DNA from: an uncultured Methylophaga sp.
Lineage (GTDB): Bacteria; Pseudomonadota; Gammaproteobacteria; Nitrosococcales; Methylophagaceae
Assembly (NCBI RefSeq): GCF_947259025.1
Contig: NZ_CAMYKO010000002.1
Coordinates: 248,001 to 312,000 of the forward strand
Length of the DNA: 64,000 nucleotides
Reading direction: 5' to 3'
Shown here: positions 44,104 to 54,974 of the stretch, piece after piece
Numbering within the stretch: position 1 is the stretch's first letter
Layout: every line of letters starts with the position of its first letter
The notes under the pieces: model-generated
Databases searched by the model: none
What the model was told of the DNA's origin: nothing
What the model saw: the letters and a program-made list of their open reading frames with translations, nothing else
Translations under genes and position numbers: made by a program

Positions 44104-45005
44104 ACGAAACTGCATTCCGCTCCGGCTATGTCGCCATCATCGGCCGTCCCAATGTCGGCAAATCGACGCTGATCAACCGCGTTCTGGGGCAGAAGCTGTG
44201 CATCACCTCGCGGCGACCACAAACCACCCGCCACCGGATTCTCGGTATCAAAACCACGGAGCAGGGCCAGTTTATTTACGTCGATACGCCGGGGCTGCAC
44301 AGCGATAACAAAAAGGCGATGAACCGCTACATGAACCGCGCGGCCTCCTCGTCGATAGAAGATGTCGATGTCATTCTGTTTGTGGTGGAAGGGCTGAAGT
44401 GGACTGATGAGGACAAAAAAGTCCTAAAGCGCTTGCAGGAAGACGCCAGAGCGCCGGTGATCCTGGTGCTCAACAAAGCCGACAAACTTAGTGACAAGGG
44501 CGCCTTACTACCGCAGATCCAGGAATTGTCATCGCAGTACGAGTTTGCTGCCGTAGTGCCGATCTCGGCACGTAAAGGCATGAATACCGATGTACTGGAG
44601 CAGGAAATCGCCAAGCTGATGCCGACAGGCGAGATGATTTTTGATGAAGATCAACTCACTGACCGCAGCTCGCGCTTTCTTGCTGCTGAAATCGTGCGCG
44701 AAAAACTGTTCCGCTACTTGGGTAAGGAGCTACCTTATTCCATTACCGTTGAAGTAGAGCTGTTTGAGGAAGAAGACGGCATGTTCCGTATCAGTGCCGT
44801 GGTCTATGTCGAGCGTAGTGGTCAGAAGTCCATCGTCATTGGCAAAAAAGGCGAACAACTCAAACGCATCGGCCAGGATGCCCGCGAAGAGATGGAACAG
44901 TTATTCGGTTGCAAGGTCTTTCTACAAGTCTGGGTTAAGGTTCGCGAAGGCTGGTCGGATAATGAACGCATGCTCAAAAACCTCGGTTACAAAGACGATC
45001 TCTGA
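44100..45005 (+). CDS. era: GTPase Era
   Basis: A 301-residue ribosome-assembly GTPase. G1 is IIGRPNVGKSTLINRVLG, G3 VDTPGLH and G4 LVLNKADKL. The C-terminal KH domain (EVELFEEEDGMFRISAVVYV, IVIGKKGEQLKRIGQDAREE) binds the 3' end of 16S rRNA. Full length (E. coli 301). The start overlaps the rnc stop (ATGA), and recO follows after 12 bases, which is the standard order. Confidence 0.98.
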   Translation: MNETAFRSGYVAIIGRPNVGKSTLINRVLGQKLCITSRRPQTTRHRILGIKTTEQGQFIYVDTPGLHSDNKKAMNRYMNRAASSSIEDVDVILFVVEGLKWTDEDKKVLKRLQEDARAPVILVLNKADKLSDKGALLPQIQELSSQYEFAAVVPISARKGMNTDVLEQEIAKLMPTGEMIFDEDQLTDRSSRFLAAEIVREKLFRYLGKELPYSITVEVELFEEEDGMFRISAVVYVERSGQKSIVIGKKGEQLKRIGQDAREEMEQLFGCKVFLQVWVKVREGWSDNERMLKNLGYKDDL

Positions 45006-50527: not shown

Positions 50528-51862
50528 ATGGCAAGACGCAGGCGCAGACAGAAGCTGCCACCGGAACCGGTGAGAGCAACAATCGAATCTTTATCTCACG
50601 ATGGCCGGGGCATTGCCCGGATTGACGGCAAAACCGTCTTTGTTGACGGCGCGCTGGCCGGTGAAGAGGTTTCCTTCCAGTACTCGCGCCTGCATAAAAG
50701 CTATGATGAAGGTCGCACTACGCAAGTCCATCAATCTGCCGCAGACCGGGTCGATCCTAAATGTCAGCACTTTGGCGTCTGCGGTGGCTGCAGCCTGATG
50801 CATATGGCGCCAGAGGCCCAGCTTGCCCATAAGCAGGCTACACTGGCAGAGCATTTCACGCATTTTGGCAGCCTGACACCACAAACCTGGCTGCCGCCTC
50901 TGACCGGGCCATTGTGGGGCTATCGGCGTAAAGCGCGGCTGGGCGTGAAGTATGTCACTAAAAAAGAGCAGGTGCTGGTAGGCTTTCGCGAAAAAGCCTC
51001 ACCCTTTATCGCTTTGCTCAATCAGTGTGAGGTGCTGGATCCGCGGGTTGGTATGCGGCTGGGAGAACTGGGCGAGATGATTGCCGGGCTCGATGCCTAT
51101 AACCGCATCGCCCAGATCGAGGTGGCGATGGATGATGAGCACGTGGCACTGGTGTTTCGTAACCTCGATCCTTTGTCCGATGCCGATAAACAACAGCTGA
51201 TTGACTATGGTCAGCAACATAATCTGTGGATGTATCAGCAGCCCGGCGGTCCCGATACGGTGTCACCATTATGGCCGCAACGACCACAGCTGTCTTATGC
51301 ACCGGAAGATGGACTGACGCTGAATTTTGATCCCAGTGACTTTACCCAGGTGAATGCCGGGATTAATGAAAAAATGATTCAGCGGGCGCTGGCGCTACTC
51401 GATGTTCAGCCTGAAGACCGCATTCTGGATCTGTTCTGCGGGCTGGGTAATTTCACTTTGCCGCTGGCAAGGCGGGTAGCCGAAGTAGTCGGGGTTGAAG
51501 GCGACCAGGCACTGGTCAGACATGCCAATAATAATGCCGCACTGAACCAGCTCAACAATGCCGAATTTGAGCAGGCCGACCTGACCCAGACTGAACTCAA
51601 GGACTACCCCTGGGCGCAAAAAGGCTTTAACAAAATTCTGCTGGATCCGCCTCGCAGTGGCGCTTTTGAAGTCTTGCACCAGCTTGCCGAACTGGGTGCG
51701 GAGAGACTGGTTTATGTGTCCTGTAATCCGGCAACGCTGGCGCGGGATGCCGGCGAACTGGTCAATCAGCACGGCTACACCATGGAAGCGGCCGGTATTA
51801 TGGATATGTTCCCGCATACCACCCATGTCGAATCGATTGCGGTATTCACTAAACAGCGCTGA
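50528..51862 (+). CDS. rlmD: 23S rRNA (uracil-1939-C5)-methyltransferase
   Basis: A 444-residue SAM-dependent tRNA/rRNA m5U methyltransferase. A basic N-terminus leads to a TRAM domain (about 12-70). The [4Fe-4S] ligands C79, C85 and C88 lie in DPKCQHFGVCGGCSLMHM, with a fourth in LLNQCEVL. The SAM motif is RILDLFCGLGNFTLPLARRV, and the catalytic cysteine is in YVSCNPATLARD near the end. These features match RlmD (RumA). Its TGA shares bases with the alkC ATG (TGATG), so the repair gene downstream is coupled. Confidence 0.95.
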   Translation: MARRRRRQKLPPEPVRATIESLSHDGRGIARIDGKTVFVDGALAGEEVSFQYSRLHKSYDEGRTTQVHQSAADRVDPKCQHFGVCGGCSLMHMAPEAQLAHKQATLAEHFTHFGSLTPQTWLPPLTGPLWGYRRKARLGVKYVTKKEQVLVGFREKASPFIALLNQCEVLDPRVGMRLGELGEMIAGLDAYNRIAQIEVAMDDEHVALVFRNLDPLSDADKQQLIDYGQQHNLWMYQQPGGPDTVSPLWPQRPQLSYAPEDGLTLNFDPSDFTQVNAGINEKMIQRALALLDVQPEDRILDLFCGLGNFTLPLARRVAEVVGVEGDQALVRHANNNAALNQLNNAEFEQADLTQTELKDYPWAQKGFNKILLDPPRSGAFEVLHQLAELGAERLVYVSCNPATLARDAGELVNQHGYTMEAAGIMDMFPHTTHVESIAVFTKQR

Positions 51863-52974
51863 TGGCTGATAACCCTTTACTTAAGGATCAGCTGGGACCG
51901 GCTGCGGTCAGGCAACTGGCAGCGCGGCTGCAAACAGCCTGGCCGGTCTTTGAACAGCAGGGGTTTATCAATCAGGCCTGTCATCAGTTAGAGTCACTGG
52001 AACTCAAGGCCAGGGTGAGCCATATCATCAATACACTGGCAGTGTTTCTGCCTGCCGGCTTTTGTGAAACGGCGCGAATTCTGGATCGGGTGGCCAGCGA
52101 CTGGCCCTGTGATCCCGAGCGCAACTGGAGCAGTTTTACCGCCTGGCCTTTGATTGATTATGTCAGTGTTTACGGACTGGACTATCCCCAGCGTTCCTTT
52201 GACTTACTGGAAAAGATGACGTCGCTGTTTACCGCCGAGTTCGCCATTCGGCCCTTTCTCGACAGGCACTTCGCCCTCACCCATCAGCAATTACTGCACT
52301 GGACGCAACATGACAGTGAGCATGTGCGGCGATTGGCAACAGAGGGCATACGTCCGCGTTTGCCCTGGGCCCGGCAGATTAAGACGTTGCGTGATGACCC
52401 TGCAGCCATCTGGCCGATTGTGGAGCCATTGAAGGCTGACCCCAGCCTCTATGTAAGGCATTCAGTGGCCAATAATCTGAACGATATCAGTAAAGATCAT
52501 CCGCAGGCGGTACTGACAATCTGCCGCCAGTGGCAACAGGGCAGTGATGAAAAAACCGACTGGGTGATGCGCCACGGTCTCAGAACGCTGGTCAAAAGCG
52601 GTCATCCTGAGGTGTATGCCTTATTGGGGTTCACCGAGCAGCCGATACTGAAAAAGGCGGATTTTCGCCTTGCTGATTCAGTGATAAAAGTCGGTGAGAA
52701 GCTGAGCCTGACGATGGCGATTGAGACTCAAGACCAAGCCCGCCTGGTGCTGGACTACCGCATCGGTTTTGTCCGCGCCAACGGCAAACCGGGCTGGAAA
52801 GTATTCAAGTGGAAAAATATTGACACGCAGGGCGGACAGACACTGACCATACAGAAAAGTCATGCCTTTATGCCGCTGGCAACACGGCAATATTACCCCG
52901 GCCGTCACCAAATTGAATGTCTGATCAACGGCCGGGTAGTGGCCAAAGCGGCGTTTTTTCTTGAGCTAGCCTGA
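51862..52974 (+). CDS. AlkC-type DNA alkylation repair glycosylase
   Basis: A 370-residue protein of the HEAT-repeat alkylpurine glycosylase group. The helical repeats cover about 15-255 (RAVSHIINTLAVFLP-like segment, then WPLIDYVSVYGLDYPQRSFDLL, and HVRRLATEGIRPRLPWARQI). The motif SLYVRHSVANNLNDISKDHP near 190 is a DNA alkylation repair hallmark. The C-terminal part, about 260-370, is beta-rich (LVLDYRIGFVRANGKPGWKVFKW). That matches the Ig-like domain described for AlkC rather than AlkD. It should excise 3-methyladenine or 3-methylcytosine type lesions. No SOS-like or Ada-type site was recognised. Confidence 0.88.
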   Translation: MADNPLLKDQLGPAAVRQLAARLQTAWPVFEQQGFINQACHQLESLELKARVSHIINTLAVFLPAGFCETARILDRVASDWPCDPERNWSSFTAWPLIDYVSVYGLDYPQRSFDLLEKMTSLFTAEFAIRPFLDRHFALTHQQLLHWTQHDSEHVRRLATEGIRPRLPWARQIKTLRDDPAAIWPIVEPLKADPSLYVRHSVANNLNDISKDHPQAVLTICRQWQQGSDEKTDWVMRHGLRTLVKSGHPEVYALLGFTEQPILKKADFRLADSVIKVGEKLSLTMAIETQDQARLVLDYRIGFVRANGKPGWKVFKWKNIDTQGGQTLTIQKSHAFMPLATRQYYPGRHQIECLINGRVVAKAAFFLELA

Positions 52975-52978
52975 ACGC

Positions 52979-53083
52979 TTACGACATGACCATGCCGTAG
53001 ACGACCAGCAGAATAAACGCGACTGATAAAACACAGATGATTTCAGCAAAGTGTTCGCTGAAGAGTTCTTCCAATTTATCCAT
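52979..53083 (-). CDS. 34-residue single-span membrane protein behind an FNR-type promoter
   Basis: A very small gene: MDKLEELFSEHFAEII at the N-terminus and VAFILLVVYGMVMS at the end, one predicted transmembrane helix (about 14-33) and an acidic amphipathic lead. AGGAGGTG lies six bases before the ATG at 53083. A second ATG one codon earlier (53086) is also possible. The strong ribosome-binding site and the upstream FNR-like promoter argue that it is real despite its size. It aligns without gaps to the second small protein at 53261-53368 (9 of 34 identical, including K, L, E, F, II, LV and G). The function is unknown. A helper subunit of a membrane complex under low oxygen is one possibility. 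Confidence 0.75.
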   Translation of the reverse strand: MDKLEELFSEHFAEIICVLSVAFILLVVYGMVMS

Positions 53084-53132
53084 CATGCACCTCCTGTTTG
53101 GTGATTGAACGATAAGCAACAAAGCTGTGTTG

Positions 53133-53174
53133 ATTATCGAGCTTGTCCCGGTGGTGAGCATTGATTTGGATCAA
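53133..53174 (-). promoter_or_regulatory. FNR/ANR-dependent class II promoter
   Basis: TTGATTTGGATCAA (53161-53174) is a perfect TTGAT-N4-ATCAA FNR box. On the reverse strand, 22 bases after it, lies GATAAT (53138-53133), five of six matches to a -10 element. This is exactly the spacing for an activator centred at -41.5, with transcription starting near 53126 and a 43-base leader to the 34-residue gene. Confidence 0.8.
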
Positions 53175-53208
53175 TTTGTTGTTGTTAATTAAAAAATTAC
53201 GCCCATAA

Positions 53209-53236
53209 AAAAAGCCAGTCAAGTGACTGGCTTTTT
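53209..53236 (-). terminator. Intrinsic terminator after the 35-residue gene
   Basis: AAAAAGCCAGTCA (53209-53221) and TGACTGGCTTTTT (53224-53236) are exact reverse complements. Because T runs follow on both strands it could act in both directions. On the reverse strand it lies 25 bases after the second small gene and ends the SulP transcript ahead of the FNR promoter. Confidence 0.9.
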
Positions 53237-53260
53237 GATGTAGTGTGTCAGTGGATTCAA

Positions 53261-53368
53261 TCAGGCGTTGTAAAGGCCGAAAGCGACCAGTGCCAGCCAG
53301 AAAGCCACAAAACTGAGGATAATGTGGGGAAATTTTTCCACCAACAGTGCATCAATTTTTTTCAACAT
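53261..53368 (-). CDS. 35-residue single-span membrane protein downstream of SulP
   Basis: A short reverse-strand gene encoding MLKKIDALLVEKFPHII at the start and LALVAFGLYNA at the end, with a transmembrane helix at about 14-32. It begins 73 bases after the SulP stop codon, and an intrinsic terminator follows it, so it is probably the last gene of the SulP transcript. A GAG lies eight bases ahead of ATG 53368; this ribosome-binding site is weaker than that of its relative at 52979-53083. The two small proteins share length, topology and spacing of conserved residues and are probably paralogs. No function can be assigned. Confidence 0.65.
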   Translation of the reverse strand: MLKKIDALLVEKFPHIILSFVAFWLALVAFGLYNA

Positions 53369-53441
53369 GTTTCTATCTCGTAGTTAACAGGTTAAACAAT
53401 TATTTTTATTCTGGCGGCAGAAGATAGCAGGTCTTGATTAT

Positions 53442-54974
53442 TTACGCCAGCTTGTCGTCAGCCACATGATATTGCGGATCTTCCATCACATTGACTTCGA
53501 TCAGGTCGGCAGCATTATCCAGCAACTCTTTGCACTCTTTACTGAGGTGTCTCAGATGCAGCGTTTTACCTGCCTTGATATAACGTTCGGCCAGGCTGTC
53601 GATGGCTTCGATCGCGGAATGGTCGTAAACCCGAGAGTTCTGGAAATCGAGAATAATATCGTCAGCCTCATCATTTTTAGGGTCGAACATTTCACTGAAA
53701 TTGCGCACTGAACTGAAAAACAACGGGCCGTTCAGCTCGTGGACAATCGAACCTTCTTTATTACGATAGCTGTTGATGTAGATGTGTTTGGCATGCTGCC
53801 AAGCAAATACCAAGGCTGACAAAACGATACCCACCATCACCGCAATGGCCAGATCGGTAAAGACGGTGATCACCGCTACCGAAATGCCGATAATGGTGTC
53901 GGGCAGGGGAATACGACCCAGCAGGCGGAAGCTGGCCCATTCAAAGGTACCCAGTACGACCATGAACATGACACCGGTCAGCGCTGCAATCGGAATGATC
54001 TCGATCAGCGGAGAGGCAAACAGGATAAAACAGAGCAGGAATAAGGCGGCTGACAGGCCTGATAAACGGCCGCGGCCACCGGAGTTGATATTGATCATGC
54101 TCTGACCAATCATGGCGCAGCCACCCATACCGCCAAAAAAGCCGGTCACGGTGTTGGCGACGCCCTGACCCACGCATTCCTTGTTGGGACGACCGGTAGT
54201 TTCGGTAATTTCATCAATCAGGGTTAATGTCAGCAAGGACTCGATCAGGCCGATAAACGCCAGTACAAACGCATAAGGCGCGATAATAGTCAGCGTTTCC
54301 CAGTTCAGCGGCACCATGGGAATGCTGAATTCGGGGAAGCCACCGGCAATGGATGCGACATCACCGACCGTGCGGCTGTCCAGCCCCAGGAAGATGACCA
54401 GCAGCGTCACGACAATAATGGCCGCCAGTGACGATGGAATTGCCTTGGTCAGCTTAGGCAGGAAGTGACTGATAAACATGGTCAATGCCACCAGACCCAG
54501 CATCCACCACAGCGCACTACCGCTCAACCACTGTTCTTCACCGTTACTGCCGGTGACCTTGAATGACTCCAGCTGTGCCAGAAAAATCACCATGGCCAGG
54601 CCGTTAACAAAGCCCAGCATCACCGGCAACGGCACCATGCGGATAAACTTACCCAGGTGGAATACCCCGGCGAGGATCTGCAATATCCCCATCAACACCA
54701 CGGTCGCAAACAGGTACTCCACACCATGCTGGGCGACCAAAGCCACCATGACCACGGCGAGAGCCCCGGTAGCGCCGGAAATCATGCCTGGCCGCCCCCC
54801 GATAGCAGCTGTGATCAGGCCCACCAGAAAAGCGGCATACAGCCCGACCAACGGTTCAACGCCGGCTACAAAAGCAAAAGCCACGGCTTCCGGTACCAGC
54901 GCCAGGGCCACGGTCAGGCCGGACAAGACATCGTTTTTAATATTCTGTGGTCGTTTCAATAACAGATTGAACAT
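53442..54974 (-). CDS. SulP family anion transporter with STAS domain
   Basis: A 510-residue inner-membrane transporter of the SLC26/SulP family. It begins with the conserved [26 protein letters not shown], shows [17 protein letters not shown] in helix 3, and has about 14 helices (to about 395). A cytoplasmic STAS domain lies at about 410-500 ([22 protein letters not shown]). Family members carry sulfate, bicarbonate or other anions. The sequence resembles the group often annotated as sulfate permease, but bicarbonate cannot be excluded. AAAGGT lies before the ATG. It is divergent from lexA and followed by the 35-residue membrane protein. Confidence 0.94.

Follow-up and report, generated by a model that had tools for sequence, protein, structure and literature searches.

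B, a 34-residue predicted membrane protein of the Methylophagaceae, appears from its sequence context to be the FNR-induced copy of a duplicated, family-specific single-helix protein. We tentatively take it to be an accessory of the cbb3-type cytochrome c oxidase; this is the likeliest role, though we hold it at slightly less than even confidence, and we infer the partner from gene distribution. In the proposed mechanism, low oxygen would activate FNR/ANR, which from a site at -41.5 would switch on the monocistronic B gene by class II activation. B would then enter the inner membrane and bind the cbb3 oxidase, where it could stabilise the enzyme, help assemble it or tune it, while its tandem paralogue A would be expressed differently. 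The regulatory logic is clear, with a duplicate gene of which one copy lies under FNR, and co-loss points to a concrete candidate partner.

The B locus and its FNR-type promoter

The stretch of DNA analysed (the window, 64,000 nt) belongs to a 2.70 Mb genome that is 99.9% complete, and the named relatives closest to it at the B locus are the methanol-consuming Methylophaga. The features of the locus are as follows:

53442..54974, minus strand: SulP/BicA-like transporter gene preceding A; adjacent, but rejected as a general partner
53261..53368, minus strand: paralogue A, 35 aa, in tandem with B on the same strand, without an FNR box of its own
53206..53238, no strand assigned: terminator-like inverted repeat GCCAGTC-AAGT-GACTGGC between A and B, flanked by A/T runs, read directly
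53161..53174, minus strand: FNR/ANR box TTGATCCAAATCAA, predicted centre -41.5, found with at most one mismatch in 38 of 44 family B genes
53133..53138, minus strand: -10 element GATAAT, its 22-nt spacing kept in relatives; the +1 is a prediction
53089..53095 (approximate span), minus strand: Shine-Dalgarno sequence AGGAGG; many relatives have a GGAGG-type site in the same place
52979..53083, minus strand: microprotein B, single-helix membrane protein, 34 aa (35 aa from the ATG at 53086)
51862..52974, plus strand: HEAT/DNA-alkylation-repair-like protein, convergent, ending 4 nt from the B stop

The original prediction described a perfect FNR box placed 22 bases from a GATAAT element in class II activator geometry, with a lone 34-codon gene and a strong AGGAGG site downstream, and each of these elements is borne out. 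The perfect box occupies 53174..53161 and the hexamer 53138..53133 on the minus strand, with a gap of exactly 22 nt. Transcription is predicted from the sequence to start at about 53126 (7 nt past the -10 hexamer), which would centre the box at -41.5. The ORF runs from 53083 to 52979, stop codon included, and its ATG lies 6 nt from AGGAGG; an alternative ATG one codon earlier, at 53086, would give 35 residues and shorten this distance to 3 nt. No same-strand gene follows B; its neighbour on that side is convergent and stops at 52974, leaving 4 nt to the end of B, so B is monocistronic.

Of the 23 FNR-activated E. coli promoters whose starts are known, 19 have an FNR site no more than 4 nt away from -41.5 (PMC3688515). 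The B promoter has a TTGAT-N4-ATCAA site with a predicted centre at -41.5, inside this tolerance of 4 nt either way, and the genome encodes an FNR protein. It thereby resembles the E. coli class II promoters of dmsA, narG and nirB, which also have a single FNR site at -41.5 (PMC3688515); unlike these, it drives a lone microprotein gene from a start site that is a prediction. The regulator gene itself (L132:985-1731) encodes an N-terminal C-x2-C-x5-C pattern, a further cysteine and a Crp-type helix-turn-helix. M. nitratireducenticrescens, too, has a described fnr gene, which has been connected with the control of denitrification genes (PMC11526790).

Genome-wide, there are 13 perfect boxes compared with none of the reversed control pattern, while chance alone, estimated simply from genome size, would yield about 2.6 perfect 10-base boxes over 2.7 Mb. 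Intergenic perfect boxes precede ccoN and the genes for cytochrome bd subunit I (cydA), a fumarase-type lyase and a zinc alcohol dehydrogenase. The last three boxes are at L121 (C4:385019 in this genome), L126 (C5:792901) and L123 (C5:252659), respectively. Taken together, the perfect boxes would outline a small FNR regulon. At least one perfect box, the second in the window (44641-44654), falls within the coding region of an Era-like GTPase gene and probably occurs by chance.

A conserved tandem microprotein family

A profile search with B detected homologues in 44 of the 57 Methylophagaceae genomes, whereas six genomes of the sister family and the 366 other Gammaproteobacteria sampled (370 were sampled from the class) yielded none. 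The frame is thus conserved in relatives, as had been asked of a genuine gene, and B is under purifying selection: its median pairwise dN/dS is about 0.32 (0.24 for A), and all measured pairs stay below 1. Residues F13 and G31 do not vary across the aligned set.

The box is conserved along with the gene. With up to one mismatch allowed, 30-160 nt upstream of the gene, it precedes 38 of 44 B genes vs 2 of 34 A genes; because the genomes are related and hence not independent, the figures measure conservation rather than a probability. The homologues with the same upstream box that had been called for therefore exist, and they span all four genera of the family. In 36 distinct upstream sequences, a TATAAT-like hexamer placed exactly 22 nt from the box averages 4.1 of 6 matches, with at least four matches in 27 of them, while all other spacings average 3.0 or less. 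Two of the four genera have one member each, and in these the box is degenerate or misplaced; the gene also has no box before it in four genomes where one copy was found (G026, G028, G068 and G070). One genome (L025, of the Methylophaga sp. 41_12_T18 type) carries two perfect FNR boxes before B, 40 nt apart. As about 2.6 perfect boxes are expected in a genome of this size, one might ask whether the ORF and its box are themselves accidental; this is refuted by purifying selection and by the family-wide retention of the ORF, the box and the spacing, and we attach practically no probability to it.

AlphaFold models B as one helix (residues 3-34, pLDDT 88), in line with a real 34-residue protein that would span the inner membrane with a single helix. 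B has no Pfam or NCBIfam family at E<=1 and no match in a PDB search, and a structure search with the one-helix model likewise gave no match. Searches of B alignment members against Pfam and of A members against NCBIfam returned only single-member, chance-level matches. B and its relatives make up an undescribed microprotein family, which among the genomes sampled is found only within the Methylophagaceae.

Small size, hydrophobicity and a strong ribosome-binding site are also properties of toxin-like peptides that depolarise the membrane, as in type I toxin-antitoxin systems or among stress peptides, and a toxin family was one chance-level match for an A member (E 0.31). However, we found no antisense promoter over B or its leader, the sole promoter-like site (53384-53412) being at chance level in consensus scans that are themselves weak evidence, and in Rfam nothing rose above noise. 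The tandem pair's long vertical conservation and the class II control by FNR also set it apart from such loci, and we consider B very unlikely to be a toxin of this kind.

The second member of the pair, A, is a homologous ORF of 35 residues (53368..53261) about 180 bp upstream of B, absent from the original prediction. It sits behind the SulP transporter gene and before the terminator-like inverted repeat (53206..53238), which the terminator scan did not report. Most genomes of the family, M. sulfidovorans DSM 11578 being one that carries the pair, retain the A-B tandem, but its flanking genes (SulP, lexA, ppsA, ppsR and the HEAT protein) vary. The natural reading of these sequences is that the gene was duplicated and that one copy was then brought under FNR control, in this presumed order.

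The neighbouring SulP/BicA-like transporter offers itself as a partner of A and B, with A directly downstream of it on the same strand in the window and an orthologous SulP gene adjoining A/B in 12 genomes. Yet the orthologue is missing from most A/B genomes, including the close relatives G003 and G013, and these genomes hold only a distant homologue elsewhere (~40-47% identity) or none. A general role as SulP accessory is thereby rejected, and we regard accessory subunits of this transporter as a highly improbable explanation. The orthologue (at least 81% identity) is confined to 12 of the 57 genomes and in all of them adjoins an A/B pair or single copy, which suggests that the SulP/BicA-like gene has been gained or lost repeatedly at one site.

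Co-occurrence and co-loss with the cbb3 oxidase

The original prediction proposed, more loosely, an accessory of a respiratory or transport complex. Of this, the transport half does not hold for the adjacent SulP as a general partner, while co-occurrence and repeated co-loss point the respiratory half to cbb3. We compared A/B presence with that of ccoN, FNR, bd oxidase and SulP. All 44 family-positive Methylophagaceae genomes carry ccoN. It was not detected in four genomes of the family (G033, G071, G076 and G077), none of which has an intact A/B copy. Across all 57 genomes the co-occurrence gives p = 0.0018 in Fisher's test, with the ccoN-negative genomes belonging to one clade and the independent events being few (2-3). 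A smaller p value arises if genomes are dropped post hoc, and it carries no weight.

At the syntenic position before ppsA, G033 retains a decayed copy, with an extra base and a TGG to TAG change inside the helix. This site, occupied in relatives by the single-copy gene, holds no copy in G071, G076 and G077. A PpsA tree places G026, a genome with both ccoN and an intact gene, together with G033 (support 95/95) inside the ccoN-negative genomes; the family gene has therefore been lost at least twice. FNR has been lost as well in three of the four ccoN-negative genomes, and the completeness of G071 and G077 is only 81-84%.

Nine ccoN-positive genomes lack an A/B match, six of them less than 83% complete. 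In G004 and G020, lexA, which adjoins A/B in relatives, lies at a contig end, so that absence is uninformative. G032 has ccoN and is 99% complete, with no A/B match; its ppsA was not found either, and hence the locus may be missing from the assembly.

Loss of FNR as the sole reason for the co-loss is contradicted by two genomes. In G024, ccoN and an intact copy of the family gene persist beside an fnr homologue wrecked by 14 stops, and G071 has fnr without ccoN and without the family gene. The wrecked homologue lies at G024:C6:289715-290404, with all 14 stops in frame, in a 1.1 Mb genome that is reportedly 100% complete; the one intact A/B copy kept there alongside ccoN stands behind a degenerate box. 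Cytochrome bd was also rejected as the partner, as bd oxidase does not track the A/B family.

The co-loss with ccoN might nevertheless be indirect, with B an FNR-induced membrane microprotein serving some other low-oxygen component (bc1, a c-type cytochrome, NO or nitrate reductase, a cbb3 maturation factor) or having a general role in membrane stress. FNR regulons are broad, the ccoN-negative genomes have probably lost several respiratory genes, and A/B has no physical link to cco. Weighing on the other side are the failure of bd oxidase to track the family and the separability of FNR from it in G024 and G071. We regard this reading as a real possibility. As to linkage, we found none between A/B and the cco operon; the two are often about 50 kb apart or on different contigs, and the operon already contains ccoQ. 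If B does serve cbb3, this suggests that searches pairing FNR boxes with short conserved ORFs could reveal lineage-specific small subunits of respiratory oxidases encoded far from the operon.

Known small respiratory proteins and a possible role of A

The closest functional parallel for a cbb3 accessory is CcoM, a 36-aa subunit of the Pseudomonas stutzeri cbb3 oxidase that is important under oxygen limitation (PDB 5djq chain N; PMC10433244); subunits of such a kind thus exist for cbb3. B resembles CcoM in length, in its predicted single transmembrane helix, in its predicted link to low oxygen and in its link to cbb3, the last presumed for B. Homology is rejected, as CcoM has no detectable sequence similarity to B; the A1 profile matched nothing in the PDB at E<=10, even with 5djq_N among the chains searched. 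Unlike CcoM, B has a tandem paralogue, with only one copy FNR-boxed, and its association with cbb3 is presumptive. In our model B would work like CcoM, yet it is no CcoM by sequence.

CydX and TorE/NapE are likewise small single-span proteins, which stabilise a respiratory enzyme (PMC6134056), and the B family shares the small size and, by prediction, the topology. They serve systems other than cbb3, the TorE/NapE genes adjoin the partner gene, and TorE is longer at 56 aa (PMC6134056). No Pfam or NCBIfam match at E<=1 connects B with TorE/NapE or with other named small respiratory proteins.

Yeast cytochrome oxidase has oxygen-switched isoforms, Cox5a and Cox5b. A and B could be their bacterial parallel, two isoforms of a supernumerary single-helix oxidase subunit that are exchanged according to oxygen supply. 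A would then be made at all oxygen levels, and B would be substituted through FNR at low oxygen, retuning or stabilising cbb3. We consider this specific arrangement unlikely. In two genomes (L137 and L145), a perfect FNR box lies 37-38 nt ahead of the A start codon, a position from which it might repress rather than activate.
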